64,000 nt of DNA, taken from positions 1 to 64,000 of the forward strand of contig NZ_JAJUWY010000007.1 in assembly GCF_021390425.1 (NCBI RefSeq), in the 5' to 3' direction. A program made the translations under genes and the position numbers. This stretch comes from Lysobacter sp. GX 14042 (GTDB taxonomy: Bacteria > Pseudomonadota > Gammaproteobacteria > Xanthomonadales > Xanthomonadaceae). The notes under the pieces were generated by a model that did not search any database, was not told the DNA's origin, and saw only the letters and a program-made list of their open reading frames with translations. Of this stretch, positions 12,561-35,207 are shown one piece after another (position 1 is the first letter of the stretch; each line of letters begins with the position of its first letter).

Positions 12561-12564
<4 letters not shown>
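11224..12564 (-). CDS. exported amidohydrolase-like protein lacking the metal-binding HxH
   Basis: A 446-residue protein with a Sec signal (SLLAAGLALAAAGAFAQ) and the amidohydrolase beta-sandwich (LLIRNATVHTAGPQGTLQGA, closing near the end with GQRADLVLWTGDPLDVAS). Where active relatives have a GLID-HxH metal motif this one reads LSPTLFGGITGIG, and the later HxH strand reads LMVNIDRAADI. Metal binding is therefore probably lost and the protein may be a pseudoenzyme partner of its neighbour. It starts with GTG in a GTGA overlap with the stop of the upstream gene 12561-14021, which implies coupled translation and roughly equal amounts. Confidence 0.85.
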
Positions 12565-14021
<1,457 letters not shown>

Positions 14022-20417: not shown

Positions 20418-21677
20418 ATGCCGCACGCCACGCCCGACATCGCCCATCACGCCACGCTCGATGCGCGGCTGGTCGAGGCCGCCTCGGGCATCAAGCTGCT
20501 GACCCTGGCCAGCTGGCCTTCGGAGGTCGTCGGCGGGTTCCTCGCCGACCAGCGCCGTGGCGTCACCCGGATGCCCGAGGTGGCGTACCCCCGGCACGAC
20601 TTCACCGCCGAACGGCGCGAGCTTGCGGCGATTGCCTCGGAAGCCGACCCGGACCACCCGCTGGGCCAGTACCTGGTCGAGTCCGCGCGCAGCTGGGATA
20701 CCGCCGCGCGGCTGTGCGAATGCCTCGGGACCGACAGCGCGACCGGCCTGTCGATCGAGCTGTACGGGCATCCGGAGTCGCCGCTGCCGGGCCAGGGCCC
20801 CGGCGTGCGCTGGGCCGCGCGCAAGTTCATCGCGGTGGCCGACGAGCTCGATCGCGAACTGGTATCGCCGGCCGAACAGTGGCCGGTGTCCGCCACCGCG
20901 CTGGCCCTGCAACTGCAGCGTGACCTGGACGAGTTCTTCAACGACCGGGTCATCGAGGTGGTGCTGGATCCCGGCCTGGTGGCCAAGGCCGCCGCCGGGG
21001 CAACCCGCATCCGCCTGCGCACCGGTGCGGCCTTCACCGAGTACGACCGCCACCAGCTGCGCGAGCACGAGGCCTTCGTGCATTCCATCACCGCGCTCAA
21101 CGGCGGTGCGCAGCCGGTGCTGGGCAGCCTGGGCCTGTCCTCTCCGCGGGTCACCGCGACCCAGGAGGGGTTGGCGACCTTCGCCGAGCAGGCCACCGGC
21201 ACCCTCGACATCGAACGCATCAAGCGGCTCAGCCTGCGGGTGGAGGCGGTGGCGATGGCGCTGGACGGCGCCGACTTCATCGACGTGTTCCGCTACTTCC
21301 TCGACGCCGGGCAGGCGCCGGAGGAGGGCGCGGCCTCGGCGCAGCGGGTGTTCCGCGGGGTGCCGGTGGGCGGCGGGGCGGCCTTCACCAAGGACACCGT
21401 GTACCTGCGCGGGCTGGTCGGGGTGCACACCTTCTACCGCTGGGCGCTGCGCACCCGGCAGCTGCGCCTGGGACGCTGGCTGTTCGCCGGCAAGATGACC
21501 CTGGGCGACGTGCAGCGCTTCGCACCGCTGTTCGAGGCCGGGGTGCTGCTGCCACCGCGCTGGATCCCGCCCTGGCTGGCGCGGGCCAACGGACTGGCCG
21601 GAATGCTGGCGTTCTCGCTGTTCGCCAACCGCATCCGACTGCAGGCGATCGACGACGCGGGGTTCCTGGATATCTGA
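20418..21677 (+). CDS. DUF1704 'QEGLA' metallopeptidase-like protein (flavohemoglobin expression-modulating family)
   Basis: A 419-residue cytosolic protein. The defining QEGLA motif is in VTATQEGLATFAEQ, and an HExxxH zinc-binding motif precedes it (REHEAFVHSITALN). This family (DUF1704) is related to the MATCAP tyrosine carboxypeptidases of eukaryotes; bacterial members are annotated as modulating flavohemoglobin expression, and their substrate is unknown. ATG 20418 fits the family. Its last codons (DDAGFLDI and stop) are repeated, with small changes, at 35103, on the far side of the gamma-glutamyl/D-amino-acid cluster. Confidence 0.87.
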   Translation: MPHATPDIAHHATLDARLVEAASGIKLLTLASWPSEVVGGFLADQRRGVTRMPEVAYPRHDFTAERRELAAIASEADPDHPLGQYLVESARSWDTAARLCECLGTDSATGLSIELYGHPESPLPGQGPGVRWAARKFIAVADELDRELVSPAEQWPVSATALALQLQRDLDEFFNDRVIEVVLDPGLVAKAAAGATRIRLRTGAAFTEYDRHQLREHEAFVHSITALNGGAQPVLGSLGLSSPRVTATQEGLATFAEQATGTLDIERIKRLSLRVEAVAMALDGADFIDVFRYFLDAGQAPEEGAASAQRVFRGVPVGGGAAFTKDTVYLRGLVGVHTFYRWALRTRQLRLGRWLFAGKMTLGDVQRFAPLFEAGVLLPPRWIPPWLARANGLAGMLAFSLFANRIRLQAIDDAGFLDI

Positions 21678-21680
21678 CTG
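21654..21680 (+). repeat. left copy of a 27-bp direct repeat bracketing the 13.4-kb cluster
   Basis: The 27 bp from GACGCGGGG to TATCTGACTG cover the last seven codons and stop of the DUF1704 gene plus three bases. They match 35103-35129 at 25 of 27 positions; only the ninth (G/A) and fourteenth (T/C) bases differ. The right copy would read DAGFPDI-stop in the same frame. This is what an insertion at a gene's 3' end with a duplicated target or att core would leave. Confidence 0.6.
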
Positions 21681-21689
21681 GCCGCCGGT

Positions 21690-22625
21690 TCAGGCTTTCA
21701 CGCGCGTGCACGGTGGCGGCGTGGTGGCATCGGTCCCGCGCCTGGCGGCGGCGAGCGATGTCCGGAAGTGCTGGAGGAACGCTTCGGCGGCATGGGACGG
21801 CGGCCGGTCTTCCAGGTACACGCACTCGATCTGGAACCGGATCGCTGGATCGAGTGGACGGAAGTCGAGTCCGGCCGTTGCGCTCGCGGTGGCGGTGAAC
21901 TCGTCGACGATGCTCATGCCGGCCCCGCAGCGGGTGAGCGCCGCGGCCAGGTAATAGGTCTGGTTGGAAACCACCTCGCGGATGTCCACGCCGTGCTGTT
22001 CCAGCTCCCGTTCCAGCAGGTCGCTGATCGGGCCGCTGTTGGCCAGCCCGACCATGTCGCGGCCGGTCAGCCGGCCAAGCGCTACCCGTTCGCCCGGATT
22101 GGGGAATGCCGTCTTCTCGAACAGCAGCATGAGCTCTCCGGTCCCCAGCCGACGGCGCTGGATACGCGGGTGCATGGGCGGGGTATAGGCGAGGGCGATG
22201 TCGCACTCGCGCTCGTACAGCGCCCTGAAGATGTCGTCGTGGTGCAGCGTCTGGACGTCGAAGGTGACCTGCGGGAACTGCTGGCGGCAGCGCGCGATGG
22301 CGTGCGGGGCGACGTGCAGCCCCAGCGATGGCACCACCGCCAGGCGCACATGGCCGCCGTCCATGTTGCGGATGTTGGCCACGGTCTTGCGCAGCGACCC
22401 CATGCGCTCGAAGATTTCCTTGACCTCCGCGAACAGCGCATGTGCCTCGTCGGTGGCCACCAGCCTCCCGCGGACCAGGGTGAACAGTTCGAAGCCCAGC
22501 TGGTTCTGGGCATGGTGGAGCACCTTGCTCACCGATGGCTGGGATACGTGGAGGGACCTGGCCGCGGCGCTGATAGAGCCGGTGGTGTAGACCGCATAGA
22601 AGACTTCGATGTGGCGCAGGCGCAT
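21690..22625 (-). CDS. LysR family transcriptional regulator
   Basis: A 311-residue regulator. Residues 1-60 form the winged helix-turn-helix (RHIEVFYAVYTTGSISAAAR, LHVSQPSVSKVLHHAQNQLG), followed by a linker helix and a periplasmic-binding-like effector domain (about 90-295). It is the last gene on the minus strand of the cluster, 17 bp after dadA, and most likely controls it, with a D-amino acid or glutamate-type compound as co-inducer (inferred). The inverted repeats at 25754 and 35017 are candidate binding sites. The stop is 12 bp from the end of the DUF1704 gene. Confidence 0.92.
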   Translation of the reverse strand: MRLRHIEVFYAVYTTGSISAAARSLHVSQPSVSKVLHHAQNQLGFELFTLVRGRLVATDEAHALFAEVKEIFERMGSLRKTVANIRNMDGGHVRLAVVPSLGLHVAPHAIARCRQQFPQVTFDVQTLHHDDIFRALYERECDIALAYTPPMHPRIQRRRLGTGELMLLFEKTAFPNPGERVALGRLTGRDMVGLANSGPISDLLERELEQHGVDIREVVSNQTYYLAAALTRCGAGMSIVDEFTATASATAGLDFRPLDPAIRFQIECVYLEDRPPSHAAEAFLQHFRTSLAAARRGTDATTPPPCTRVKA

Positions 22626-22642
22626 CGCTAGAGGTTAGGCCA

Positions 22643-23896
22643 TCACCCTCGGCCTGGCCACGGCGTGGTGCCCGCCTCGCCCAGCGCCAGGGCAACCGCG
22701 CGCTCGGCGCTGCCCATGGCCAGAGTCCAGCCGAGCATGCCGTGGCCGACGTTGCAGGTCAGGCCTTCGCGGGCGTTTGCGATGATCGGGACCGAGTCGG
22801 GCGTGGCAGGCCGGAGGCCGGCCCATCGGTGCAGGATGCGGGTGTAGTCGCCCGCGTCGGGCAGTGACTGCCGCGCCAGGTCCAGCATCTGCCCGAAACG
22901 GGCCGGGTCCACGGCCGGGTCCCAGTCGTTGATGTCGGCCAAGCCGGCGATCCGGAGCCGGTCGCCCAGGCGGCAGAACACGAGCTTGCGCGCGGTGTCG
23001 GTGATGCTGGTGGCGGGTGCCCGCGGGCCGCACGGAACAGTGAGGGAATGGCCCTTGATCGCCATCAGGGGCAGGCGGATGCCCAACGGCCGCAGCAGTG
23101 CCGCGCTGTCAATGCCGGCGCATACGATCAGCTTCCGGGCTTGGATCACCTCGCCCTCGCGCGAGGACAGCAGCCATTCGCCGGCGCTGCGCCGGATCGA
23201 CTCGAGGCTGAAGCCGAACCGGGCCTGCAGCGGATACCGGCCGCGCATCGTGTCCAGGAGCCCGGCGGAGAAACGCCACGGATCGCCGACCGCCTCGTCC
23301 GGCGAGTACACCGCGCCGCGGATCCCCTCCACCTGCGCGAGTGCGGGTTCGACATCGCTGGCGGCCTCCGCGTCCAGCAGGACCTGCCGCACGCCATGGG
23401 CACGCTTGAGCTCCACCATCTTCGCGCCGGCGCGAAGCGCGGCATCGTTGAAGTACAGGTGGAGCTTGCCGGCGACGTGGTGCTGGAAATCGATCGGATG
23501 GCGTTCGAGCAGTGCCTGCATCGCCTGCCGCGAGTCGCGCGCCAGGGCGAGCGTATGCAGCGTGTTGCGGCGCAAGCGGGAGCCATTGGCGTTGGCCAGC
23601 AGGGACAGCCCCCAGCGCCAGATCGCCGGGTGCCCGTTGAGCCGGAGGCGGAACGCCGGGTCGCTGCCGGCCAGCAGGCCCGGGATCTGCTTCCACAGCG
23701 ACGGACCTGCCATCGCATCGGTGTACGCGTAGCTGAGCTGGGCCCCGTTGGCGTACGAAGCGCCCAGTCCCGGCCCCTCGGCGCGGTCCACCAGTTCCAC
23801 CGACAGGCCACGCCGGACGGCGGCCCAGGCGGTCGCCACGCCGACCACGCCGGCGCCTACGACGGTGATGTCACAGGGTCGGGAGTGCGGAGCCAT
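22643..23896 (-). CDS. dadA: D-amino acid dehydrogenase (DadA-like FAD oxidoreductase)
   Basis: A 417-residue flavoprotein. The dinucleotide fold is at the N terminus (ITVVGAGVVGVATAWAAVRRG), followed by the DadA signature YANGAQLSYAYTDAMAGPS and later LPLMAIKGHSLTVP, RHW-like HRWAGLRPATPDSVPIIA and NVGHGMLGWTLAMGSA. DadA enzymes oxidise D-amino acids to 2-oxo acids and ammonia and pass electrons to the respiratory chain at the inner membrane. The ATG lies inside the 3' end of the upstream ggt gene (26-bp overlap), so the two are coupled. No strong ribosome site is visible. Amino-acid preference is unknown. Confidence 0.88.
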   Translation of the reverse strand: MAPHSRPCDITVVGAGVVGVATAWAAVRRGLSVELVDRAEGPGLGASYANGAQLSYAYTDAMAGPSLWKQIPGLLAGSDPAFRLRLNGHPAIWRWGLSLLANANGSRLRRNTLHTLALARDSRQAMQALLERHPIDFQHHVAGKLHLYFNDAALRAGAKMVELKRAHGVRQVLLDAEAASDVEPALAQVEGIRGAVYSPDEAVGDPWRFSAGLLDTMRGRYPLQARFGFSLESIRRSAGEWLLSSREGEVIQARKLIVCAGIDSAALLRPLGIRLPLMAIKGHSLTVPCGPRAPATSITDTARKLVFCRLGDRLRIAGLADINDWDPAVDPARFGQMLDLARQSLPDAGDYTRILHRWAGLRPATPDSVPIIANAREGLTCNVGHGMLGWTLAMGSAERAVALALGEAGTTPWPGRG

Positions 23897-25634
23897 CGTC
23901 GCGGGTGGGGTTCGGGGGAGTGGTGGGAATGGCAACGCCCTCGCGGCGCGGGTCGGCCGCCCCGTGCAGGCGGCCGGAACGCAGCTGGACGCCATGCAGG
24001 CCGGAATCCTCGCCGCTGCCGGGCCGGACCCGCACGCCCAGTTCCTCCAGTGCCTGCCGCAGCGCTGGCGCGAGCGCGTCGGCTTCGCCGTCATGGCGTT
24101 CGCCGCGCGCCACCAGGTTGGGAAGCGCGATGGCCTGGTCCAGCGGCAGGTCCCAGAACAGCCAGCCGAGCAGGGTCTTGCCGATGTAGGCCGGGATCGC
24201 GTTGCCACCGGGCGAGCCGATCGCACCGGCAAAGTTGCCTTGCGGATCGAGCACGATCACCGGCGACATGGACGATCGCGGCCGCTTCCCCGGGGCAATC
24301 GCATTGGCGGCCGCGCCGCCCGGCTGCCAGGAGAAATCGGTGAGCTGGTTGTTGAGCAGCATTCCACCCACCACGCGGCCGGAGCCGAAGTACGATTCGA
24401 TGGTGGTGGTCATGGACACTGCGTTGCCTTCGCCGTCCACCACCACGAAGTGGCTGGTGCCGGCCGGCTCGGCGGTGTCGTCGCCGGCATTGGCGGGGGC
24501 TCCCGCGGGCACGCCGGGGGAAACCGCCCCGGCGGCGGCGCGCTCGCCGAGCAGGCGCCGGCGGCTGTCGAGATAGTCCGGATTGAGCATGCCCTCGATC
24601 GGCACCTCCACGAAATCCGGGTCGCCCACGTAGTGGTCGCGATCGGCGTACATCAGCCGGCTGGCCTCGGCGAAGGTCAGCCAGGCCAGCGGGTCGTCGG
24701 GCGAGCGTCCGGCGATGTCGGTGCCTTCAAGCAGCAACAGCAGCTGCAGCAACCCGACCCCGCTGGAGGGTGGTGGCGGCACGCACACCACGTGGGCTCG
24801 GATGGTCCGGCACAGCGGCCGCACCTTTTCCGCCCGGTAGCCGGCGAGATCCTCCGCGCGCATCGGCGAAGGCCCCGGCGGCTCCTGGATACGCCCCAGC
24901 AGGGCCTCGGCAAGCGGTCCGGTCTGCAGGGCGGCGGCGCCACGGGTGGCGACCTCCTGCAGGCTGCGTGCATAGGCGGGGTTGCGCATGACCTCGCCGA
25001 TCCGCAGCGGCTGGCCACCGGGCCCCGAGAAGAGCCTGGCCACGTCCGGTGCAGAGGCCTGCGGAAAGTTTCCGACGATGTGCCGGTGCAGGCGCGGAGT
25101 GACGCTGAAGCCGGTGGTGGCCGTTTCCGCCGCTGCCGAGAACAGCGTCGACCATGGAAGCCGGCCATGGTCGGCGTGCGCGGCCTCCAGCGCCGGCAGC
25201 ACGCCCGGAACCCCGGTGGCGCGCCCGCTGAGCATGGCCTCCGAACGCGGTAACGGATCTCCGGCGGAATCCAGGAACAGGGCGGCGTCGGCGCCGGAGG
25301 GCGCCCGTTCGCGGCCGAGGTAGGCATCGACTTGGCCGTCGCGTGCCCGGTAATGGAGCAGGAACGCTCCCCCGGCCAATCCCGAACTCTGCGGCTCCAC
25401 CAGGCCGAGCATGGCCTGCACCGCGATGGCGGCATCGATCGCACTCCCGCCGCCCTGCAGCACGTCCACGCCTGCGCGTGTGGCAAGCGGGTGCGCACTG
25501 CTCACCATTCCGCCGCCGCCGGACGATGGAGCCGGCGGATCCTCCCGCAAGCGGGCTGGCGAACACGCTGCAAGCAGCGCGCCGGCAAGCGTCGCCAGCA
25601 CCGCGAATGCGCGTGCCCGGCGCCGGATATGCAT
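23871..25634 (-). CDS. ggt: gamma-glutamyltransferase, lipoprotein form
   Basis: A 587-residue Ntn-hydrolase precursor. It begins with a lipoprotein signal (LATLAGALLAACS; lipidated Cys near residue 24), unlike the usual soluble periplasmic enzyme. GGT features: GGGSAIDAAIAVQAMLGLVEP, the self-cleavage and catalytic Thr at AGTSHFVVVDGEGNAVS, then SYFGSGRVVGGMLLNNQL and SSMSPVIVLDPQGN. GGTs cut or transfer gamma-glutamyl groups from glutathione, gamma-glutamyl peptides or poly-gamma-glutamate. ATG 25634 gives the lipobox; an ATG 22 codons upstream is less likely. It heads the minus-strand operon ggt-dadA-lysR. Confidence 0.92.
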   Translation of the reverse strand: MHIRRRARAFAVLATLAGALLAACSPARLREDPPAPSSGGGGMVSSAHPLATRAGVDVLQGGGSAIDAAIAVQAMLGLVEPQSSGLAGGAFLLHYRARDGQVDAYLGRERAPSGADAALFLDSAGDPLPRSEAMLSGRATGVPGVLPALEAAHADHGRLPWSTLFSAAAETATTGFSVTPRLHRHIVGNFPQASAPDVARLFSGPGGQPLRIGEVMRNPAYARSLQEVATRGAAALQTGPLAEALLGRIQEPPGPSPMRAEDLAGYRAEKVRPLCRTIRAHVVCVPPPPSSGVGLLQLLLLLEGTDIAGRSPDDPLAWLTFAEASRLMYADRDHYVGDPDFVEVPIEGMLNPDYLDSRRRLLGERAAAGAVSPGVPAGAPANAGDDTAEPAGTSHFVVVDGEGNAVSMTTTIESYFGSGRVVGGMLLNNQLTDFSWQPGGAAANAIAPGKRPRSSMSPVIVLDPQGNFAGAIGSPGGNAIPAYIGKTLLGWLFWDLPLDQAIALPNLVARGERHDGEADALAPALRQALEELGVRVRPGSGEDSGLHGVQLRSGRLHGAADPRREGVAIPTTPPNPTRDDGSALPTL

Positions 25635-25753
25635 GGACAACAGGCCGTCTCCCGCAAGTGGGTGGGTGCAGTTTCCGGCAACAGGCCGGCCGGTGCGCAA
25701 AGCCTAAACCGCGGCCGCGGGAGCGGACCTCATTTTGATTCCAGCGGGCACAA

Positions 25754-25783
25754 CCTGCGGTTATGGGGCGCCATAACCGCAGG
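25754..25783 (+). promoter_or_regulatory. perfect 13-bp inverted repeat in the divergent ggt/ggt promoter region
   Basis: CCTGCGGTTATGG (25754-25766), GGCG, CCATAACCGCAGG (25771-25783). It lies about midway in the 235 bp between the two divergent ggt genes (starts 25634 and 25870), the expected place for an operator acting on both. The GCGGTTATGG half-site resembles GCGGCTATG at 35025 and GCGGCTATT at 20366. Binding by the cluster's LysR protein is inferred. Confidence 0.65.
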
Positions 25784-25869
25784 GTATGTGCTGCCCCAGC
25801 ATTGATGGGGGGCACCCGGCGGGGATTTATGCATGGTGGTGGGCGACCGTTGCCCTGGGAGGAGGAAGC

Positions 25870-27600
25870 ATGGTCTGGAGCGTTGCACGCAGGGGTGCCG
25901 TGCTTGTTGCCGGCTGTCTTTTTGCACTGTCGCTGGCCGCGCCGGCGCAGACCCGCCAGCTGCTCAACTACGAAGCCATCCACAAGCCGGAGGTGGGCAG
26001 CGCCGGCATGGTGGTCAGCCAGAACGAGGCGGCCAGCAGGGCCGGTGCCCAGGTCCTGCGCGACGGCGGCAATGCCGTCGATGCCGCCGTGGCGACCGCC
26101 TTCGTGCTGGCCGTGACCCTGCCGCGGGCGGGCAACATCGGCGGGGACGGGTTCATGTTGATCCACCTGGCCGACGGGGATCGCTACACCGCCATCGACT
26201 ACCGTTCGGCGGCACCGGCGCTGGCGACCCTGGACGCCTATGTTGGCGCTGACGGTGGGCTCGACGGCCATTCCGCGGGCATCCGTGCGGCGGGCGTGCC
26301 GGGCACCGTGGCCGGCCTCGCGCTGGCCCATGAAAAGTACGGCCGCCTGCCCTGGAAGCGGTTGCTGGAGCCGGCGATCGAGATGGCCGGGCAGGGAATC
26401 GTGCTGACCGCCGACGAGGCGTTCGCGTTGGACTGGGGCCGGGAGCGGCTGGCGCGCAGCGCGGCGGGGGCCGCGGTGTTCCTGCGTCCCGGCGGGGAAG
26501 CGTTGGGCGCGGGCGAGCGGCTGGTGCAGCCCGACCTGGCCTGGACGCTGCGCCGCATCGCGGAGCATGGCGCCCGGGATTTCTATCGCGGGCAGATCGC
26601 CGACCGCCTCGACGCAGGCATGCGCGCTCACGGAGGATTGCTGCGCAAGCAGGACCTGGCGGGCTACCAGGCGATCGAGCGGCCGGCGCTGCGCAGCACC
26701 TACCGCGGCGTCGGGGTGGTGACGATGCCACCTGCCAGCGGTGGCGGGGCGGGCATCGTCGGGATCCTCAACGTGCTCGAGCATTTCGACCTGCCCTCGA
26801 TGGGGGCCGGATCGGCCGACGCGCTGCACCTGTTCGCCGAGGCCAGCAAGCTGTCCTGGCGCGACCGGCTGGCGCATGTCGGTGATACCGGCTTTCACCC
26901 GGTGCCGTTGCGTGGCCTGGTCGACAAGCGGTATGCGGCCGAGCGCGCCGCCCTGGTGCGGATGGATCGCGCCAGCCCGGCGGCCGAAGTGGAAGCGGGG
27001 GATCCCTGGGCGCACGAGAGTCCCCAGACCACCCATTTCTCGGTCGTCGATGCCGACGGCAACGTGGTCAGCAACACCTACACCCTCGGCGCCGATTTCG
27101 GTTCGGGAGTGATGGTGGAGGGAACCGGGTTCCTGCTCGGGAACCTGATCGGCAACTTCTCGCTGCGCGCGCAGCTGGAGGCGCGGCGCGAGGGCGGCAC
27201 CGCACCGCCCAATGCGCTGCAGCCCGGGCGGCGGCCGGTATCCAGCATGGCGCCGACGATGCTGGTGCGCGACGGCAAACCGTGGCTGGTGACGGGAAGC
27301 CCCGGCGGCAACACGATCCCCGGAACGATCGCGCAGACGGTCATCGACGTGGTCGATTTCGGCATGAATGTCGCCGAAGCCACGATGGCTCCGAGGGTGC
27401 ACCAGCACATGTCCGGCGAAGGCGCGCTCCAGGTCGAGCGCGGCCTGAGCCCGGACACGCTGCGGCTCCTGGAGGGCCGCGGCCACGGCATTTCGTCCGG
27501 ACAGACGATCGGCAGCACCCAGATGCTGCTGATCGGCCCTGGCCGGGTCGAGGGAGCGGCCGACCCCCGAAGGCCCGGGGCGGCGGCCATCGCGCAATAG
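25870..27600 (+). CDS. ggt: gamma-glutamyltransferase, secreted form
   Basis: A 576-residue second GGT with a cleavable Sec signal (AVLVAGCLFALSLAAPAQT), so it should be free in the periplasm or outside. Family marks are GGNAVDAAVATAFVLAVTLP, GNIGGDGFMLIHLADG, the catalytic Thr at PQTTHFSVVDADGNVVSNTY, and RRPVSSMAPTMLVRDGKP. ATG 25870 follows GGAGGAGG closely; the upstream open frame crosses the operator. It diverges from the lipoprotein GGT and is followed after 87 bp by the TonB receptor gene. The two GGTs differ clearly and are not a recent duplication. Confidence 0.93.
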   Translation: MVWSVARRGAVLVAGCLFALSLAAPAQTRQLLNYEAIHKPEVGSAGMVVSQNEAASRAGAQVLRDGGNAVDAAVATAFVLAVTLPRAGNIGGDGFMLIHLADGDRYTAIDYRSAAPALATLDAYVGADGGLDGHSAGIRAAGVPGTVAGLALAHEKYGRLPWKRLLEPAIEMAGQGIVLTADEAFALDWGRERLARSAAGAAVFLRPGGEALGAGERLVQPDLAWTLRRIAEHGARDFYRGQIADRLDAGMRAHGGLLRKQDLAGYQAIERPALRSTYRGVGVVTMPPASGGGAGIVGILNVLEHFDLPSMGAGSADALHLFAEASKLSWRDRLAHVGDTGFHPVPLRGLVDKRYAAERAALVRMDRASPAAEVEAGDPWAHESPQTTHFSVVDADGNVVSNTYTLGADFGSGVMVEGTGFLLGNLIGNFSLRAQLEARREGGTAPPNALQPGRRPVSSMAPTMLVRDGKPWLVTGSPGGNTIPGTIAQTVIDVVDFGMNVAEATMAPRVHQHMSGEGALQVERGLSPDTLRLLEGRGHGISSGQTIGSTQMLLIGPGRVEGAADPRRPGAAAIAQ

Positions 27601-27687
27601 CAACGGCAACGGCAGCGGTCGCTGGACGGCAGCGGTGTCCGGCGTGGCCATGACAAGGAACCGGATGGTTCGTGGGAGCAAAGACAG

Positions 27688-30600
27688 ATGAAGACGTATC
27701 GGAAGACCGTACTCGCCATGGTCGTGGGCGCGACCCTTGCCGGCACGCCGGCTTTCGCGCAGACCCCGCCGGCGGTGGAGCCCGACGCCACCCGGCCGCC
27801 AGCGAACGATGATGCGCAGCCCCGGGCCGCGGACCGGGCCACCGGGCAGGATCCGGCCGGGCGCATGGCCGAGCTGGACCAGGTGGTCGTCGTCGGAAGC
27901 CGCTTTGCCGGCAACAACGAAGCGGGCATGGTCCCGGTCGCGGTGATGGACGAGGCGGAGATCGAGGCCACCGGGGCGGTGTCGGGCGAGGAGCTGCTGC
28001 GCAGCCTGCCGCAGGTGGGCGACATGATGTTCGACAACACGGACACGGCCGCCAACATCAATGCCGCGCGCGGCGACATCGGTTCGGTGAACCTGCGCAA
28101 CCTGGGTACCGGCAACACCCTGCTGCTGGTCAATGGCAGGCGCATGGTCCCGCATCCGGGAACCCAGACGGAAAACCTGGTGCCGCGCCAGACCGCCAAC
28201 ATGAATGCGGTCCCGCTGTACGGGGTGCGGCAGATGGAGGTCCTGATGGGCGGCGCCTCGGCGCTGTACGGGTCGGATGCCGTGGCCGGCGTGCTGAACG
28301 TGGTGATGGATACCCATTTCCAGGGCTTGGAGGTGCAGGCTCAGTACGGAGGGTCGGAAGACATCGACCTGCGACAGGGCAACCTCAACTTCAAGGCCGG
28401 CAGCTGGTTCAACGATGGCCGCACGCGGGTCACCCTGCTGGGTGGCCACACCTACCGCTCCGAGGTGGCAGCCAGCGAACATCCACTCACCGCCGACATG
28501 GATCGCCGCGCGCTCCTGCAGGGGACGTCGCTCGAAGGGCATCTTTCGTTCGACGACCGCTACACCACCACTTCATGGGGCGCCTTCCAGACCGTGGGCG
28601 GGGTTCCCGTCGCAAGGGACGGCACGCCGCTCACCAGCGCCAGCGGCTACTTCAACATCCAGCCGCCGGAGCACCGCTGCGGGGTGGAACTTGATTCGGG
28701 CGTGTGCATGCAGACCGGCGGCTTCAACTCCAGCCTGGACCGTCCGCTGCGCTTCAATGCGCTCACCCAGCGCAACATCCTGGGCGGGGTGGGCAGGAGC
28801 AACCTGTTCGGAACGGTCGAACAGGACATCAATGACGATTTCGTCGCCTTCGGCGAAGTCAGCTATTACCAGGCGAAGTTCGAAAGCATGCGCGAACAGG
28901 CGGCGTCACTGGGCGCGGCGCCGATGATCGTGCCCGCGTCCAACTACTACAACCCGTTCGGCGCCATGTACCTGCCGGACGGGTCGCCCAACCCCAACCG
29001 CCTGCCCGGCATCGATGCACCGGAGGAAGGGCTGGACCTGCGGATCACGAGCTACCGTGCCACCGACACCTCGCGCCCGTACGAGGTCAACGATGACTCC
29101 TATCGGGTCCTGGGCGGAGTACGTGGCTACCTGGGCGGCTTCGACTGGGAAAGCGCGGTGCTGTACTCGCGTGCCACCACCGAGGACATCCAGCACGGCT
29201 CGATCAGCAACACGCTGTTCGCCGAGGCGCTGGCGCGCTCCGACCCGGGCGCCTACAACCCGTTCAACGGCGGCGACCCGGGTGACTGGACCGGCGTGGA
29301 TGGCACCCCGAGCGATGCCGCGACGATCGCCGGCTTCACCGTGCCGGTGCGCCGGTACAGCACCGCCAGCCTGTTCCAGGTCGACTCCAGGTTCCTCCAC
29401 GAGCAGATCTTCAGCCTGCCGGCTGGCGACGTGGGCCTGGCCTTCGGTGCGGAGTGGCGGCGGGAGAGCCTGTCGGACCAGCGTGATCCACGGCTGAATG
29501 GGGACATCACCTACACCAACCCGATGACCGGGGAGGTCACCAGTGACGTGTTGGGCGCCAGCCCGTCGGCGAGCAACTCCGGATCCCGGAACGTGGCCTC
29601 GTTCTATACCGAACTCGCGGTGCCGGTCGTCTCACCGCAGATGCAGGTGCCGCTGGTCCGCAGCCTTGACCTGCAGCTGGCCGGCCGCTGGGAGAAGTAC
29701 TCCGACTTCGGCTGGGTCGCCAATCCGAAGGTCGCCCTGGCCTGGACGGTGACCGATGACTTCATGGTGCGCGGCAACTGGGCCCAGAGCTTCCTGGCAC
29801 CCAACATCCTGCAGCTCTATGCCGATGGCGCCACCGTCAGCAACACCCGCACCGACTATTACGTATGCGAGGCCGACATCCGGGCCGGGCGGATCGAAAG
29901 CTTCTCGCAGTGCGGCCGCTCATCCAGTACCCAGGCGGAGCGCAGCGGCAACCGCGAGCTGCAACCGGAGACCTCCGATGCCTATTCGGTTGGTTTCGTC
30001 TTCCAGCCGACGTTCCTGCCCCAGGGTGCCGGCAAGCTGACCCTGACCGCGGACTACTGGGTGATCGAACAGGAGGACGTCATCGGCATCCTCGGCGAGC
30101 AGGCCCAGCTGGCACTGGACTACCTGGCGCGCATGCAGGGCTCGTCCAACCCGAACGTGATCAGGAACGATCCGGATGACACCAGGGTGGCGGACTTCGA
30201 GGGAACCGGGCTGGACCCGGTCGGTACGGTCAGCCTGGTGTACGACCGCTACATCAACCGGCTTCCCCGCACCACGCGCGGGATCGACTTCGGCCTGACC
30301 CAGCGTATTACCACTGACCACGCCGGCACGTTCAACCTCAGCGCCAACGCCTCGCGCCTGATCGAGCGCACCCAGGATCCGGTGCCCGACGAGCAGATGA
30401 TCCTGGAGGCGCAGCAGGCCGGGATCATCAATGACGGGTTCCGCCTCAGCAGCGCCGGCAACCTGCTGGGCATCAACGGCTCGCCGGAGTGGCGGGCGAC
30501 GTTCAACGCCTCGTGGCGCCAGGGCGACTGGCTCACCGGCACGCACGTGCGCTACGTGGGGCCATTCGAGACCACCGGTGTGCTGCACGACGACGGCAGC

Positions 30601-30819
30601 CGCATGCGGATCCCGAGCTGGACCACCGCCAACCTGTACCTGGAGCGCCGCTTCGAAGGGCTGGGCAACTTCCTCGACGGTTCCCGTGTCCGGCTCACGG
30701 TGCGCAACGTGGCCGATCGCGATCCGCCGATCTCGGGCACGGCGATCGGTTTCTACTCCTCGGTGCATAACGTGCTGGGGCGTGGCTACTACCTGACCTT
30801 GACCAAATCGTTTGACTGA
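27688..30819 (+). CDS. TonB-dependent outer-membrane receptor
   Basis: A 1043-residue outer-membrane transporter. Residues 1-25 are a signal peptide (TLAGTPAFAQ); a proline-rich linker follows to about 60; the TonB box is in LDQVVVVGSRF. The plug (about 80-210) has GSVNLRNLGTGNTLLLVNGR and MEVLMGGASALYGSDAVAGV; the rest is a 22-strand-type barrel ending GRGYYLTLTKSFD. The size and plug match the large receptors of xanthomonads and sphingomonads that import oligopeptides and glycans rather than small siderophores. No SusD partner is present. Position between a GGT and a serine hydrolase suggests a peptide-like ligand. Confidence 0.94.
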   Translation: MKTYRKTVLAMVVGATLAGTPAFAQTPPAVEPDATRPPANDDAQPRAADRATGQDPAGRMAELDQVVVVGSRFAGNNEAGMVPVAVMDEAEIEATGAVSGEELLRSLPQVGDMMFDNTDTAANINAARGDIGSVNLRNLGTGNTLLLVNGRRMVPHPGTQTENLVPRQTANMNAVPLYGVRQMEVLMGGASALYGSDAVAGVLNVVMDTHFQGLEVQAQYGGSEDIDLRQGNLNFKAGSWFNDGRTRVTLLGGHTYRSEVAASEHPLTADMDRRALLQGTSLEGHLSFDDRYTTTSWGAFQTVGGVPVARDGTPLTSASGYFNIQPPEHRCGVELDSGVCMQTGGFNSSLDRPLRFNALTQRNILGGVGRSNLFGTVEQDINDDFVAFGEVSYYQAKFESMREQAASLGAAPMIVPASNYYNPFGAMYLPDGSPNPNRLPGIDAPEEGLDLRITSYRATDTSRPYEVNDDSYRVLGGVRGYLGGFDWESAVLYSRATTEDIQHGSISNTLFAEALARSDPGAYNPFNGGDPGDWTGVDGTPSDAATIAGFTVPVRRYSTASLFQVDSRFLHEQIFSLPAGDVGLAFGAEWRRESLSDQRDPRLNGDITYTNPMTGEVTSDVLGASPSASNSGSRNVASFYTELAVPVVSPQMQVPLVRSLDLQLAGRWEKYSDFGWVANPKVALAWTVTDDFMVRGNWAQSFLAPNILQLYADGATVSNTRTDYYVCEADIRAGRIESFSQCGRSSSTQAERSGNRELQPETSDAYSVGFVFQPTFLPQGAGKLTLTADYWVIEQEDVIGILGEQAQLALDYLARMQGSSNPNVIRNDPDDTRVADFEGTGLDPVGTVSLVYDRYINRLPRTTRGIDFGLTQRITTDHAGTFNLSANASRLIERTQDPVPDEQMILEAQQAGIINDGFRLSSAGNLLGINGSPEWRATFNASWRQGDWLTGTHVRYVGPFETTGVLHDDGSRMRIPSWTTANLYLERRFEGLGNFLDGSRVRLTVRNVADRDPPISGTAIGFYSSVHNVLGRGYYLTLTKSFD

Positions 30820-30840
30820 GGCCGGCCACTGCACGGTGCC

Positions 30841-30858
30841 GGGCGGCGCATGCCGCCC
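30841..30858 (+). other. hairpin between the TonB receptor and serine hydrolase genes
   Basis: GGGCGGC (30841-30847), GCAT, GCCGCCC (30852-30858) is a perfect 7-bp stem 22 bp after the receptor stop and 27 bp before the next start. There is no T-tract, so it is more likely to shape the mRNA between the two genes than to end transcription. Confidence 0.5.
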
Positions 30859-30885
30859 GCCCGGCGGGCCGCCGAGGGGAGTGGA

Positions 30886-32046
30886 ATGAAAAGAAGGAAC
30901 CTCGCCAATCGTGTCCCTGCACCCTTCGCGGCCCTGCTGCTGGCGCTGTCGGCGCTGGTCCCTGCCTGGGCCGGGGAAATCGGGGAGAAGCTCGGCGCAC
31001 TCATGGCAGAGCACGATGCCGTCGGCCTGGCCGTGGTGGTGGTCAGGGACAACGACCTGGTCTACCGCGACAGCCTGGGCTGGAAGGATCGGGAGGCGCG
31101 CCTGCCCCTCAAGGGGGACGACGTATTCCGGATCGCGTCCATATCCAAATCGTTCGCCGCCACTTCAGTGCTGCAGCTGGTCGAACAGGAAAAGCTGTCG
31201 CTGGATGACGATGTCGGCGGGCTGCTTGGATTCCCGGTCCGCAATCCCGGATTTCCCGAGCACGTGATCACCCTGCGGATGCTGCTGAACCACACCTCCT
31301 CGATCACCGACCGCCAGCAGTACGGCAGCCTGGACCTCATCAACCCGCAGGCCAGCGCAACCTGGACGGAAAGCTACTCCGCGCATGCCCCGGGGGACCA
31401 CTACGAATACTCCAACCTGGGCTACAACATGGTCGGTGCGATCATCGAGCGGGCCTCGGGGCAGCGGTTCGACAGGTACGTGGGCGAGCACGTGCTCGAG
31501 CCCCTGGGGCTGTACGGTGGGCATTGGCCCGACGTGCTGGAGGCGGGTCGTTTCGCGCAGATCTACCGCTACCGCGTAGGCGAGGGCTTCGTGCGCTCGG
31601 AAGCCGCGTACGCGCTGCTGGGCGAGCGGCTGGACGACTACCGGCTGGGCTACAGCGCACCGCTGTTCTCCCCCACCGGCGGACTGAAGATCTCGGCGCC
31701 GGACCTCGCCCGGTACATGCTCATGCACATGAACCAGGGCGAGTGGGGCGGCGTGCGGATCATCAGCCCCGAACACGCTGCCCTGATGCAGTCCCCGACG
31801 ACCCCGATCGACGGGGATGCCGGCTACGGCCTGGCCTTGCGCACCGACCGGAACCTGGTCCCCGGGGTCACCCTGACCGGCCATACCGGCTCTGCCTACG
31901 GGCTGTACAGCTCCATGTTCTTCGACCCCGAGCGCAAGTACGGCTTCATCGTGATCACCAACGGCGCCAGGGATCCAGGGATCCGGGAGGCGGTGAACCG
32001 GGCGCTGTACGAGCATTTCATCGCCCCGCTCAGCGCCAGAAATTGA
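30886..32046 (+). CDS. exported serine hydrolase (beta-lactamase/D-aminopeptidase family)
   Basis: A 386-residue protein with a Sec signal ending LVPAWAG. All three motifs of the penicillin-recognising fold are present: SxxK as SISK (IASISKSFAATSV), YxN as YSN (HYEYSNLGYNMVG) and HxG as HTG (TGHTGSAYG). Relatives include D-aminopeptidases, D,D-carboxypeptidases, esterases and class C beta-lactamases. Its context (GGTs, D-amino-acid dehydrogenase, D-aminoacylase) favours a D-peptide or D-amino-acid ester substrate; this is inferred. GAGGGGAG precedes ATG 30886. Its end overlaps the convergent gltS by 17 bp. Confidence 0.9.
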   Translation: MKRRNLANRVPAPFAALLLALSALVPAWAGEIGEKLGALMAEHDAVGLAVVVVRDNDLVYRDSLGWKDREARLPLKGDDVFRIASISKSFAATSVLQLVEQEKLSLDDDVGGLLGFPVRNPGFPEHVITLRMLLNHTSSITDRQQYGSLDLINPQASATWTESYSAHAPGDHYEYSNLGYNMVGAIIERASGQRFDRYVGEHVLEPLGLYGGHWPDVLEAGRFAQIYRYRVGEGFVRSEAAYALLGERLDDYRLGYSAPLFSPTGGLKISAPDLARYMLMHMNQGEWGGVRIISPEHAALMQSPTTPIDGDAGYGLALRTDRNLVPGVTLTGHTGSAYGLYSSMFFDPERKYGFIVITNGARDPGIREAVNRALYEHFIAPLSARN

Positions 32047-33226
32047 TGAACCCGGTGATGATCAGCGCGTTGGTGAAGTCGATGAAGAACGCCCCGACCA
32101 GCGGGGCCACCAGGAAGGCGCGCGGCGCGGTGCCGTAGCGTTCCACCAGTGCGCGCATCACCGCCATCGCGTTGGCGGTGGTGCCCAGCATGAAGCCGAT
32201 GAAGCCGCCACCCATGACCGCTGCGTCGTAATCGCGCCCCATGACCCGGAAGACCACGACGCAGAACGCCACCACCGCGCCCACCTGCAATGCCAGGTTC
32301 AGCACCAGGGGCAGTGCCAGCCCAGCCAGCTCCCAAAGCTTGAGGTCCATCAGGGCCACCGACAGGAACAGCGCCAGGCACACGTTGCCGATCAGGTCGG
32401 TGGTGGACACCGGAAGGCCGACCCAGCCGGTCCAGTCATCCAGGTTGCGGATGGCCGCGCCCACCAGCATCGCACCCACGTAGGCGGGCAGGGTGATGCC
32501 GGTCGAGGAGATCAGGCCGCTGACCCATGCACCCAGCCACATGGCGATCAGCAGCGTCACGATGCTCTTGAGGGCGTTGAATTCCCGGACCGCCTCGGAC
32601 GGGCCTGGAGAAATCGTCGTTTCGGGTTCCACCGCGGCCCGTGCCTGCGGCCGGGGATGGGACAGGTTGAAGCGGCGGATCAGCACCGTGATGGCCGGGC
32701 CGCCCACCAGCCCACCCAGCACGATGCCGGCCATCGCCGAAGCGACCGCGATCGATTCCGCGCCGCGTACCCCGGCTTCTTCGAACAGGGGCGCGAAAGC
32801 CAGCCCCGTGGCCGGCCCGCCGGTGAGGGTGGTCGAACCGGCCAGCACCCCGAACAGCGGATGCAGGTCGAAGCCCACCGCCACCGCCATCCCCAGCAGG
32901 TTCTGGAACACCGCGAAGCCGCTGGCCAGGCCCAGGAAGACCATCACCTGGGCGCCACTGATCTTCAGCAGCCTGAGGCTCGCGTTCATGCCGATCGTGG
33001 TGAAGAAGGCGACCATCAGCGGTGCCTGCAGGCCGGTGTCGAGCACGAACAGCGTGGTGTCCCGGGTGTGTGCGATCCACGCCACGATGGCGAAGACCAG
33101 TCCGCCGATCACCGGCGGCGGGAGGTTGTACCTGCCAAGCACCGGTATCCACCGGCACAGGCCGTAGCCCAGGAACAGGGCCACGCCCGCGAGGGCAAGG
33201 GTCTGTACCGCATCAAGTTGCAGCAT
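32030..33226 (-). CDS. gltS: sodium/glutamate symporter GltS
   Basis: A 398-residue inner-membrane carrier, the length of E. coli GltS, with about ten hydrophobic segments in two inverted halves and a charged central loop (PETTISPGPSEAVREFNALK). Family blocks include GYGLCRWIPVLGRYNLPPPV, LAGSTTLTGGPATGLAFAP and GGGFIGFMLGTTANAMAVM, the glycine- and serine-rich re-entrant motifs. GltS takes up glutamate with Na+; the E. coli protein also handles D-glutamate. AGGAG is a few bases before the ATG on its strand. It lies 18 bp after the deacylase gene, with which it forms an operon. Confidence 0.94.
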   Translation of the reverse strand: MLQLDAVQTLALAGVALFLGYGLCRWIPVLGRYNLPPPVIGGLVFAIVAWIAHTRDTTLFVLDTGLQAPLMVAFFTTIGMNASLRLLKISGAQVMVFLGLASGFAVFQNLLGMAVAVGFDLHPLFGVLAGSTTLTGGPATGLAFAPLFEEAGVRGAESIAVASAMAGIVLGGLVGGPAITVLIRRFNLSHPRPQARAAVEPETTISPGPSEAVREFNALKSIVTLLIAMWLGAWVSGLISSTGITLPAYVGAMLVGAAIRNLDDWTGWVGLPVSTTDLIGNVCLALFLSVALMDLKLWELAGLALPLVLNLALQVGAVVAFCVVVFRVMGRDYDAAVMGGGFIGFMLGTTANAMAVMRALVERYGTAPRAFLVAPLVGAFFIDFTNALIITGFINFWR

Positions 33227-33244
33227 CGATAGGAGCTCCTGTCG

Positions 33245-34903
33245 TCAATCGGGTGGCAACCGGGCCCGGTCGCAGGTGCCCGCGGGCGGGCGGTGGCGCA
33301 GGACGCGTCCCGGCAGCGCGTCCGCCGCGCTGCCCCGGTCGATCATGGCCACGCCATTGACGAACAGGTATTCCACGCCCCTGGACGGGACCGCCGGCTC
33401 CAGGTAGGAGGCCGCGGGGGCGTAGCGGGCAGGGTCGAACACCACCACGTCGGCGTAATATCCGCCGCGCAGGTAGCCGCGGTCCTCCAGGCCGAAGGTG
33501 GTGGCGCTGAGGCCGGTGGAGCGGTGGATGAACGCCTGCAGGTCGATCACCCCGTCTTCCACCACGTATCGGGCGTATTTTTCCGGGAAGGTGGCGTACT
33601 GGCGTGGATGCCCGTCGCCGCCGTCGGAGGCGGTCAGCATCCAAGGCTGCTGCATCAGCGCCTTCACGTCGTCCGCGTGCATGTTGAAGGAAGCGATCTT
33701 GCGTGCCGAGCCGCTGCCGTCCGGACCGCCATGGCGGATGATTCTCAGCGCCGCGTCCACCGGCTCCAGTTCCCACGCTTCGGACATCTGCGCCAGCGTC
33801 CTGCCGGACCATGGCCAGCCGTCGCCGATCATCAGCACCGCGCCCGCTCCGCCGCGGCGGCGCAGGTTCTCCCCCATCTCGCCGCGGATGCGGTTCGCGG
33901 TGGCCGGGTCGTCGAGCCGGGTGAGCAGCGCGTCGCGGCCGCCGTCCTGCGACCAGCGCGGCAGCAGGGCGGCCTCGATGCCGGTGGCCGAGGCCAGCCA
34001 CGGGTACTGGTCGGCGGTCACCTGGAGGCCATCCGCACGCGCGCGATCGATGCGGTCGATGATCTTCCCTGCGCTTCCATGCACGTCCGTCCCAAGCGCC
34101 TTGAGGTGCGCGATGTGCACCGGAATCCGCGCCCGGCGGCCGATCTCGAGCACTTCCGCGATCGACCCCATCAGTCCGATCGAGTAGCTGGACTCGTCCC
34201 GCTGGTGGGTGTCGTAGACGCCGCCGCGCACTGCGGCCTCCGTGGCCAGCGCCACCACCTCGTCGGTGGTCGCGAAGCTCTGGGGCGCATAGAACAGGCC
34301 GGTGGAAAGACCCAGGGCGCCCTGGCACATCGCCTCGGCCACCAGGCGGCGCATCTGCTGCAGTTCCCCGTCGTCCGGCGCGCGGTCCGTGTTGCCGAGC
34401 ACCCGGCGCCTCACCGGCCCCAACCCGACGTAGGCGGCGATATTCGTGCCCACCCCGTGGTCCTCGAACCACTCACGCTGCCCGGCGATGTCCGGCGTGC
34501 CGCCTCCGTCTACTCCGATGAAGATGGTGCTGACTCCCTGGTACAGCCACGGCAGGTTGCGCCGGACCCGCGGATCGGGGGAGCGGATGTGGCTGTAGGG
34601 ATGGGTATGGGGATCGATGAAGCCCGGCGCCACGATCATCCCGCGCGCGTCGATGGTGCGCGCAGCCCGGTAGCGGCCTTCCAGGTCCTGGCCCACCTCG
34701 ACGACCCGGTCCCCGGCGATCGCGATGTCGGCCGTGCGGGCGGGGTTGTCGCTGCCGTCGAACACGGTGCCGCCCGCAATCAGCAGGTCTGCCGTGCCGG
34801 CGGGCGGTGCAGGGTGCAGCCCGGAACAGGCGGTGAGCAACAGCGCGGCCGCCAGCAGGCCGGCGGGCTGGGCGGTTCGCGCGGGGCGGCGTGGACGGGA
34901 CAT
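33245..34903 (-). CDS. N-acyl-D-amino-acid deacylase (D-aminoacylase) family lipoprotein
   Basis: A 552-residue amidohydrolase of the D-aminoacylase subgroup, made as a lipoprotein (LLAAALLLTACSG). Metal motif HTHPYSH sits in PGFIDPHTHPYSHIRS; subgroup blocks are GALGLSTGLFYAPQSFATTD, the THQRDESSYSIG region, IPVHIAHLKALG and LTASDGGDG with the late Asp; YYADVVVFDPARYAP closes the sandwich. Such enzymes free D-amino acids from N-acyl-D-amino acids, and some act on N-acyl-D-glutamate. ATG 34903 follows GAGG and gives the lipobox. First gene of a two-gene operon with gltS, so released D-glutamate could be imported at once (inferred). Confidence 0.9.
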   Translation of the reverse strand: MSRPRRPARTAQPAGLLAAALLLTACSGLHPAPPAGTADLLIAGGTVFDGSDNPARTADIAIAGDRVVEVGQDLEGRYRAARTIDARGMIVAPGFIDPHTHPYSHIRSPDPRVRRNLPWLYQGVSTIFIGVDGGGTPDIAGQREWFEDHGVGTNIAAYVGLGPVRRRVLGNTDRAPDDGELQQMRRLVAEAMCQGALGLSTGLFYAPQSFATTDEVVALATEAAVRGGVYDTHQRDESSYSIGLMGSIAEVLEIGRRARIPVHIAHLKALGTDVHGSAGKIIDRIDRARADGLQVTADQYPWLASATGIEAALLPRWSQDGGRDALLTRLDDPATANRIRGEMGENLRRRGGAGAVLMIGDGWPWSGRTLAQMSEAWELEPVDAALRIIRHGGPDGSGSARKIASFNMHADDVKALMQQPWMLTASDGGDGHPRQYATFPEKYARYVVEDGVIDLQAFIHRSTGLSATTFGLEDRGYLRGGYYADVVVFDPARYAPAASYLEPAVPSRGVEYLFVNGVAMIDRGSAADALPGRVLRHRPPAGTCDRARLPPD

Positions 34904-35016
34904 CGGAGCCTCGCTGGTCGGGTATTGGCCACGGCCCGCAGGACGGCGGCCGGGCGCAGGTTCGTCCATCTTCATCGCTGCCGTGCGAGGTCACCATTGA
35001 AATAGGGCCAGTCCTG

Positions 35017-35033
35017 CATAGCCCGCGGCTATG
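35017..35033 (+). promoter_or_regulatory. LysR-type palindrome upstream of the deacylase-gltS operon
   Basis: CATAGCC (35017-35023), CGC, GGCTATG (35027-35033). The core ATA-N9-TAT fits the T-N11-A rule for LysR-type boxes. It lies 114 bp before the deacylase start within the 304-bp gap 34904-35207. The GCGGCTATG half matches the GCGGTTATG half-site of the ggt operator at 25754. The rest of the gap holds the right direct repeat and the maeB promoter; no gene was seen. Confidence 0.55.
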
Positions 35034-35102
35034 TGTCGCGTTCGGCGGGGATGGACGCGCGGACCGGCCGGAGTCGTTGCCGCCCAGCCAAGGGCCATCA
35101 CG

Positions 35103-35129
35103 GACGCGGGATTCCCGGATATCTGACTG
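35103..35129 (+). repeat. right copy of the 27-bp direct repeat bracketing the 13.4-kb cluster
   Basis: This stretch matches the end of the DUF1704 gene (21654-21680) at 25 of 27 bases and reads DAGFPDI-stop in the corresponding frame, preceded by GCCATC where the gene has GCGATC. It is not part of any gene here. It lies between the deacylase promoter and the maeB promoter. Confidence 0.6.
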
Positions 35130-35168
35130 TTGGCCCGGAACGGCACGCCCGGGATGGCGGGCGGCCGC

Positions 35169-35174
35169 TAGAAT
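35169..35174 (+). promoter_or_regulatory. -10-like element for maeB
   Basis: TAGAAT 33 bp before the maeB start, immediately outside the right direct repeat. It matches the elements before rsgA and aceE. A -35 is not clear. Confidence 0.35.
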
Positions 35175-35207
35175 CGGGAGTTTCCGCCCCGCACGCCGCA
35201 GCCGTCC

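Follow-up and report, generated by a model that had tools for sequence, protein, structure and literature searches.

We analyzed a 64,000-nt stretch of DNA, here called the window, from Lysobacter sp. GX 14042 (NZ_JAJUWY010000007.1, positions 1-64,000; assembly GCF_021390425.1), in which positions 21690-34903 hold a locus of eight genes, among them two gamma-glutamyltransferases (GGT1 and GGT2). The host genome (2.8 Mb, estimated completeness 99.95%) was placed in the Lysobacteraceae, and the closest GGT2 is that of Candidatus Luteimonas excrementigallinarum (87%). An initial annotation had read the locus as a system for using gamma-glutamyl and D-amino-acid compounds. Pfam and NCBIfam profile matches confirmed all eight genes, with the families it had claimed: a LysR-type regulator, a DadA-family oxidoreductase, GGT1, GGT2, a TonB-dependent receptor, an S12 serine hydrolase, the symporter GltS, and NAAD, an amidohydrolase lipoprotein (Table 1).

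The genes form three units: GGT1-DadA-LysR, read leftward; GGT2-receptor-S12 hydrolase, read rightward; and NAAD-GltS, again leftward. The GGT1 and GGT2 units diverge from one gap, about 0.15-0.24 kb long according to where GGT2 starts; we put this start at 25870 because the first ATG of its open reading frame (ORF), at 25786, overlaps a promoter box described below. The DadA gene sits within an ORF that is longer than the gene itself; we took the initial 112 codons of this ORF to lie outside the gene. GGT1 and DadA overlap, 17 bp separate DadA from LysR, and 18 bp separate NAAD from GltS, spacings that fit operons. The locus is flanked by QEGLA and malic enzyme, which we rejected as members of the set, as both flank other, smaller sets (L038, L048, and L050). 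A scan of the window with Rfam gave zero matches at gathering thresholds.

Table 1. Genes and promoter boxes of the locus, in window coordinates
Feature	Position	Strand	Evidence
LysR-type regulator	21690..22625	-	Pfam LysR_substrate 121 bits, HTH_1 57 bits
DadA-family FAD oxidoreductase	22643..23896	-	DAO domain 204 bits; PRK00711 311 bits
GGT1, lipoprotein gamma-glutamyltransferase	23871..25634	-	Pfam 444 bits; lipobox LAAC
LysR-type box, 1 mismatch, GGT1/GGT2 divergent promoter	25750..25764		Pattern scan
Second LysR-type box, 1 mismatch, 23 bp on from first	25773..25787		Pattern scan
GGT2, exported GGT-family hydrolase (predicted)	about 25870..27600	+	Pfam 530 bits; alignment to E. coli GGT
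TonB-dependent receptor, 1043 aa	27688..30819	+	Plug and barrel above cut-offs
S12 (beta-lactamase-fold) exported serine hydrolase	about 30886..32046	+	Pfam Beta-lactamase 205 bits; SISK, YSN, HTG motifs
GltS sodium/glutamate symporter	32030..33226	-	TIGR00210 323 bits vs cut-off 310.75
NAAD amidohydrolase lipoprotein	33245..34903	-	Lipobox LTAC; PDB matches 1m7j, 3gip
LysR-type box, exact, upstream of NAAD-GltS	35018..35032		Sole exact copy in genome

We looked for orthologues across 198 family genomes, one of them the genome of the window. The receptor was found in 5 other genomes (65-68%), GGT2 in 9 others (61-79%; 10 genomes with the window's), GGT1 in 7 others (58-62%; 8 with the window's), and NAAD in 11 others (59-77%; 12 with the window's). 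Their occurrence is nested: all 8 GGT1 genomes are among the 10 GGT2 genomes, and all 10 of these are among the 12 NAAD genomes. Left out of the counts were GGT1 relatives at 42% in two genomes without a GGT2 orthologue (G022 and G067), as well as GGTs at 42% or less, which are present in nearly every genome (197 of the 198 match GGT2 at E 1e-40). In the neighborhoods that we fetched, the genes lie side by side, mostly between QEGLA and malic enzyme. Both the orthologue co-occurrence and the recurring neighborhoods led us to reject a chance neighborhood. The set recurs in Lysobacteraceae, Caulobacterales, and Sphingomonadales, the opposite of the lack of co-occurrence that, according to the initial annotation, would have spoken against its reading. 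A single fixed receptor was also rejected; in four genomes (G162, G063, G060, and G010; L030-L033) the locus receptor is just 25-28% identical to that of the window, and at least two receptor types occur in the loci.

A wider sample of loci came from named genomes scanned with the ten-sequence GGT2 alignment. We kept the best 80 of 107 GGT2 relatives and scored the surrounding loci with bit-score thresholds and a gene finder of our own. All locus counts given below for LysR, DadA/Dgc, the box, and RidA refer to these 80 named records only, some of which apparently duplicate family-survey genomes (DgcN/DgcA of L067 and L031 are 100% identical). The 80 loci stem mainly from Lysobacteraceae, Caulobacterales, and Sphingomonadales, plus a number of unplaced metagenome-assembled genomes (MAGs). 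One contig with a GGT2-type gene, labeled as a Klebsiella pneumoniae MAG (L133), is probably mis-binned or misnamed; in the rest of our sample, such genes belong to Alphaproteobacteria and Lysobacteraceae. The receptor shares a stretch with GGT2 in 74 of the 80 loci, and the same LysR is present in 45 (the receptor in 43 of these and in 31 of the 35 without LysR). Among the 45 LysR loci, NAAD was found in 33, GGT1 in 31, the S12 hydrolase in 11, and at least one carrier in 34 (GltS in 16, an SDF-type carrier in 19, both in L068). Several Sphingomonas loci have the order LysR-DadA-receptor-NAAD-SDF-GGT2-GGT1 on one strand, and several Caulobacter loci the order LysR-DgcN-DgcA-receptor-NAAD-SDF-GGT2-GGT1.

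The 35 loci without LysR may serve another substrate. Eleven of them are shorter than 12 kb, so some of their absences may be due to truncation. ECF sigma and FecR genes lie beside the receptor-GGT2 pair in 6 of the 35. In L075, L080, L081, L084, L086, and L137, mostly from Caulobacter, ECF sigma, FecR, and an MFS transporter replace the LysR module next to receptor and GGT2, and a large M14 peptidase gene lies near several of them.

Equivalent parts are exchanged between loci, namely DadA or DgcN-DgcA, GltS or an SDF carrier, and one or another of at least two receptor types. DadA and/or DgcN/DgcA accompany the LysR orthologue in 44 of 45 loci, and neither system was found in any of the 35 loci without LysR. 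Of the 45, 25 have DadA only and 18 have DgcN and/or DgcA only (16 with both Dgc genes, L073 with DgcN alone, L134 with DgcA alone); Pseudoxanthomonas yeongjuensis (L067) has both systems and Luteimonas granuli (L062) neither. Across all 80 loci, DgcN matched in 18, DgcA in 18, and at least one of them in 19. By Fisher's exact test, with kinship ignored, the mutual exclusion of DadA and Dgc has p = 2e-10 and the link to LysR p = 6e-22. The DadA/Dgc label changes at least three times on a quick GGT2 tree of the 80 named records plus the window, and among three independent pairs on this tree Dgc stood opposite to DadA in 2.6 and did not differ in 0.4, on average. Two representatives each of DgcN (513.6 and 521.6 versus 480) and DgcA (459.8 and 421.5 versus 400) passed the NCBIfam equivalog cut-offs; they came from G063 (DgcN and DgcA), a Caulobacter MAG (DgcN), and Luteimonas arsenica (DgcA). 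RidA matched in 9 of 26 DadA loci (one match partial), in 0 of the 18 Dgc-only loci, and not in the window; its presence in DadA loci fits, since RidA would suit an imine-releasing dehydrogenase. In the portions of the literature available to us, DgcN-DgcA is described as a D-glutamate route (PMC10845958, PMC12363236). Because this published route swaps with DadA, the shared end product of the set is probably D-glutamate, and we propose from sequence that the window DadA oxidizes it.

The slot near malic enzyme (and QEGLA in L038, L048, and L050) holds smaller D-glutamate sets in L048, L049, L050, and L038, consisting of LysR-GltS-DgcN, of receptor-DadA-GltS, or of DgcN alone; the slot looks like a hot spot for D-glutamate function. 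One gene there, c83 of G113 (L038:12131-13477), matched no Pfam family.

Promoter comparison gave a box, ATARCCNNNGGYTAT, which has the T-N11-A form typical of LysR sites. The window genome holds a single exact copy, upstream of NAAD-GltS, and no copy of a reversed control pattern; with up to one mismatch there are five copies, three in the locus and two elsewhere (on C1 and C19). The two copies in the GGT1/GGT2 gap have their equal in the sister locus L058, also a pair 23 bp apart. A long perfect palindrome (25754-25783) overlaps both, and among the intergenic stretches compared only L058 shares it, in shorter form. We then counted the box in 26 further genomes, 15 chosen for their D-glutamate loci and 11 without such loci. 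Fourteen exact boxes were found in 12 of the 15, 13 of them within the D-glutamate loci (the exception lies on C92 of G141), and none in the 11 genomes without such loci; the reversed control pattern occurred twice in the 26. None of the exact boxes of the 80 loci falls within a query-matched gene. The gene set thus appears to be jointly regulated: one regulator seems to tie the parts of the locus together via a shared box, and this LysR is probably the regulator of a D-glutamate regulon.

The two GGTs differ at their predicted donor sites. Positions are given in what we take to be E. coli GGT numbering, anchored on the start of the small subunit, and residues were tabulated for the 65 of 80 GGT2 and 30 of 32 GGT1 sequences with gene calls over 450 aa. 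GGT1 scored above the Pfam G_glu_transpept cut-off (444 versus 27 bits) and below the NCBI equivalog cut-off (333.9 versus 357.85). The window copy and 30/30 others have the family residues (the Thr nucleophile, R114, D433, S462/S463, and Gly-Gly) as well as E411 and Q430 next to D433, and the lid segment between 433 and 462 spans 18-24 residues in the 30 sequences, 20 in the window, compared with 28 in GGT2. Judged by these residues, GGT1 is a short-lidded lipoprotein with a canonical donor site. GGT2 is a clear family member as well (TIGR00066, 482 versus 357.85 bits), with Thr391, R114, S462, and Gly-Gly in 65/65 sequences. The window copy keeps the Thr nucleophile, R114, and S462/S463 of E. 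coli GGT and carries N411G, Q430L, and D433N. G411 and N433 are invariant in 10/10 orthologues and 65/65 locus sequences, and the usual pair of D433 and N411 was found in none of them; position 430 is Q in 42, L in 18, and E in 5, and position 463 is T in 46 of the 65. One of the two scan patterns behind the 80 loci includes Gly411, so that N411G, though not D433N, is partly conditioned in the count of 65; the 10 orthologues came from a whole-protein search, and both changes hold there. A third GGT of the window genome, on C12, has N411 and D433.

N411 contributes to amino binding. In the part of PMC8062742 available to us, the residue equivalent to D433 contacts the alpha-amino group of the donor, class IV cephalosporin acylases have Asn at this position, and D433N in E. 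coli GGT abolishes transpeptidation while glutaryl acylase activity is gained. Since Asn433 is typical of these acylases, N-blocked gamma-glutamyl compounds are suggested as substrates of GGT2. By this reading, GGT2 would be able to act on gamma-glutamyl groups with a blocked amino group, and GGT1 would act on those with a free one.

NAAD belongs by sequence to the same family as D-aminoacylase (PDB 1m7j) and the Bordetella N-acyl-D-glutamate deacylase (PDB 3gip). The HxH motif, both His, and the catalytic Asp are kept in 31/31 sequences, as are a Lys, a Tyr, and an Arg that we read as carboxylate-binding. The metal-ligand Cys is Asp in 30/31, the exception being a 32%-identical enzyme of Stenotrophomonas nitritireducens (L070). 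A 2025 study, in its accessible text, describes the metal ligands as strictly conserved in three related groups, with Cys/His/His and a catalytic Asp (PMC12017989). Of the earlier description as an N-acyl-D-amino-acid deacylase lipoprotein, family and lipobox stand, whereas the PRK09061 cut-off is missed (162 versus 340 bits) and the Cys ligand is absent; that NAAD works like a deacylase can be said only by inference. Elsewhere in the window, at 7769-14021, lie three consecutive leftward amidohydrolase genes, the largest fused to a PD40/TolB-like propeller.

PDB relatives of the S12 hydrolase include alkaline D-peptidase and D-Ala-D-Ala carboxypeptidase, and also esterases and beta-lactamases; it is perhaps an accessory D-peptidase or carboxypeptidase. 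An M14 carboxypeptidase with AstE/AspA similarity is encoded near the locus in several Luteimonas (L060-L063, L065, L066, and L135), and in G047 (L024) its gene lies directly beside the locus, in a fetched stretch without a GGT1 or DadA match. This carboxypeptidase is a possible alternative gamma-D-glutamyl peptidase. For GltS, the available text of a Vibrio fischeri study reports that a D-glutamate auxotroph could grow at very low levels of D-glutamate if it had mutant gltS alleles (PMC12502697).

Taking these data as a whole, we consider it likely that the locus serves, under the control of LysR, to scavenge D-glutamate from compounds that are gamma-linked and N-blocked. The recurrence of the set, the swapped equivalent parts, and the LysR-type box that links its promoters all support the original idea of a system for gamma-glutamyl and D-amino-acid compounds. 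Starting from the gene set, its conservation, the swaps, the residue changes, and the shared box, which were established directly, we infer the enzyme activities, step order, ligand, and box function as follows. The TonB receptor would carry the compound to the periplasm, where GGT2, with an altered donor site tolerating a blocked alpha-amino group, would cleave N-acylated glutamate at its gamma-bond, and the canonical GGT1 would cleave off gamma-glutamyl residues whose amino group is free. The NAAD lipoprotein would then take the N-acyl group off D-glutamate, and the S12 hydrolase would trim D-peptide ends. GltS would carry D-glutamate in, and DadA would oxidize it to 2-oxoglutarate; in relatives, DgcN-DgcA would lead it to L-glutamate instead. 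Peptidoglycan stem peptides (L-Ala-gamma-D-Glu-mDAP, where mDAP is meso-diaminopimelate) contain N-acylated, gamma-linked D-glutamate. They are the most likely source compound, because they would be fitting substrates for GGT2, for NAAD, and for an S12 enzyme whose relatives include D-peptidases; among the ligands first suggested, peptidoglycan gamma-D-glutamyl peptides thus fit best, and none of the candidates is proven. A more specific version is tentative, and we hold it to be rather doubtful: that the natural D433N/N411G GGT is an N-acyl-gamma-D-glutamyl hydrolase and that the Cys-to-Asp amidohydrolase lipoprotein completes the release of D-glutamate, both within a pathway that is dedicated to N-blocked gamma-D-glutamyl peptides and runs from the outer membrane to the cytoplasm.

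Several observations weigh against this interpretation. The exact box is present in only 18 of 45 LysR loci (and in 1 of the 35 without LysR) and is missing from three of the 15 genomes chosen for D-glutamate loci (G010, G047, and G172); its presence in these loci is partly circular because it was derived from them, which does not apply to its scarcity elsewhere. Three independent tree pairs are too few for significance, and the tree was a quick search. The DadA label given earlier keeps its family and its FAD DAO domain, which is above the Pfam cut-off, but the window protein is under both NCBIfam D-amino-acid dehydrogenase cut-offs (311.3 versus 383 and 194.4 versus 494), and for dgcN a wider substrate range is stated in the part of the literature available to us. 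NAAD lacks the Cys of the Cys/His/His site of subtype V D-aminoacylases/N-acyl-D-glutamate deacylases, and a nearby Arg316, kept in 27/31, is at most a candidate for the Arg295-type residue of 3gip that binds the gamma-carboxylate. The Vibrio study, as far as its accessible text goes, concerns a mutant, more promiscuous GltS, not the wild type (PMC12502697). As to GGT2, the available part of PMC8062742 states that E. coli GGT D433N keeps 82% of its hydrolytic activity, so GGT2 may still take free-amino donors, and that N411 is the partner of the lid tyrosine. Two loci, L044 and L045, have NAAD, GltS, DgcN-DgcA, receptor, S12 enzyme, and a distant LysR (32-33%) with no GGT match.

These last loci also bear on the idea that the natural substrate is poly-gamma-glutamate from Bacillus slime or capsules, with GGT1 working from the free-amino end, GGT2 inside the chain, and D residues passing to DadA. 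The short lid of GGT1 would agree with this, as the absence of a lid in Bacillus GGTs is linked to poly-gamma-glutamate hydrolysis in the available part of PMC8062742. However, a pure glutamate polymer would leave the NAAD-like and D-peptidase-like S12 enzymes little obvious work, and NAAD loci exist without a GGT match, which disfavors poly-gamma-glutamate as the only theme; we regard it as unlikely. The loci could instead be general scavenging clusters for gamma-glutamyl peptides and glutathione, with DadA an incidental neighbor. GGT1 is canonical, GltS is named for glutamate generally, and E. coli D433N GGT still hydrolyzes (PMC8062742, available part), all of which is compatible with such a role. 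Against it, DadA and/or DgcN/DgcA are kept, one swapped for the other, in 44 of 45 LysR loci, GGT2 is without D433, the reported contact of the donor alpha-amino group, and the genome encodes its third GGT, which has N411 and D433, away from the locus. We give general scavenging little credence, and glutathione use as the sole role was rejected.

A ligand of another kind, a natural product with iso-linked D-glutamate, for instance a microcystin-type peptide from cyanobacteria, would also offer an N-acyl-gamma-D-glutamate. Microcystin has this group in iso-linkage and sphingomonads degrade it, and the 80 loci include Sphingopyxis, Sphingomonas, Caulobacter, Aquidulcibacter, and several MAGs named for a lake or pond. 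The Lysobacteraceae hosts, however, are not known to be linked to microcystin, and we judge this ligand very improbable.

D-Glutamate catabolism, GGTs, and TonB-linked scavenging are each already known. The locus resembles the DgcN-DgcA pathway, reportedly first described by Yu et al. (2023, ISME J), in disposing of D-glutamate, and DgcN/DgcA stand in for DadA in the loci of relatives, but DgcN has no match in the window genome. In dguRABC of Pseudomonas aeruginosa, a regulator, a DadA-type D-glutamate dehydrogenase, RidA, and a periplasmic binding protein stand together. The loci studied here share the regulator beside a DadA-type dehydrogenase and, in part, RidA; unlike dguRABC, the window lacks a RidA match, and its locus also encodes periplasmic hydrolases and a receptor of the outer membrane. 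Nor was a periplasmic binding-protein family found among the genes scanned (20418-37490), and the locus falls outside dguRABC so defined. GGT2 shares Asn433 with class IV cephalosporin acylases and E. coli D433N mutants (PMC8062742, available part) but sits in a D-glutamate locus, its substrate being deduced from sequence. NAAD, likewise, is of the 3gip and 1m7j family but has Asp for the metal-ligand Cys. We found no description of the whole set in a partial coverage of the literature (few subscription journals), judged by titles and the starts of abstracts. A text search of a paper on Caulobacter peptidoglycan recycling (PMC13046382) found neither "gamma-glutamyl" nor "D-glutamate."

Related arrangements were seen elsewhere. 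The window genome encodes a second large receptor, 44-46% identical, with ECF sigma, FecR, an amidohydrolase, and an M20-type amidohydrolase (L034; G000:C19:120401-140400), and five more of the fetched loci have this set too (L029, L035, L036, L037, and L039). L040 and L041 (G053 and G001) have a different receptor (36%) and two GGT-like genes in tandem, and also encode an SDF-like carrier and a protein resembling a TolB propeller. In L046 and L047 (G032 and G072), DgcA and DgcN are joined by a GGT, an S15 peptidase, a putative receptor of large size, and a distant LysR (35-37%). An exact box stands between the genes for GGT and LysR, and L046 also has GltS.

Bacterial cell walls and long-lived organic matter both have D-glutamate as a major component, and to our knowledge the uptake of external gamma-linked D-glutamate by bacteria is poorly defined. 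The locus supplies a testable candidate for every step of such uptake, and its LysR, with a rare DNA box, is a handle by which such loci might be found. It also places in a natural context a residue pattern of GGTs that the available part of PMC8062742 discusses for cephalosporin acylases and engineered mutants. If the more specific pathway set out above is true, TonB-rich bacteria would gain a way to feed, through the periplasm, on the stem peptides of foreign peptidoglycan.

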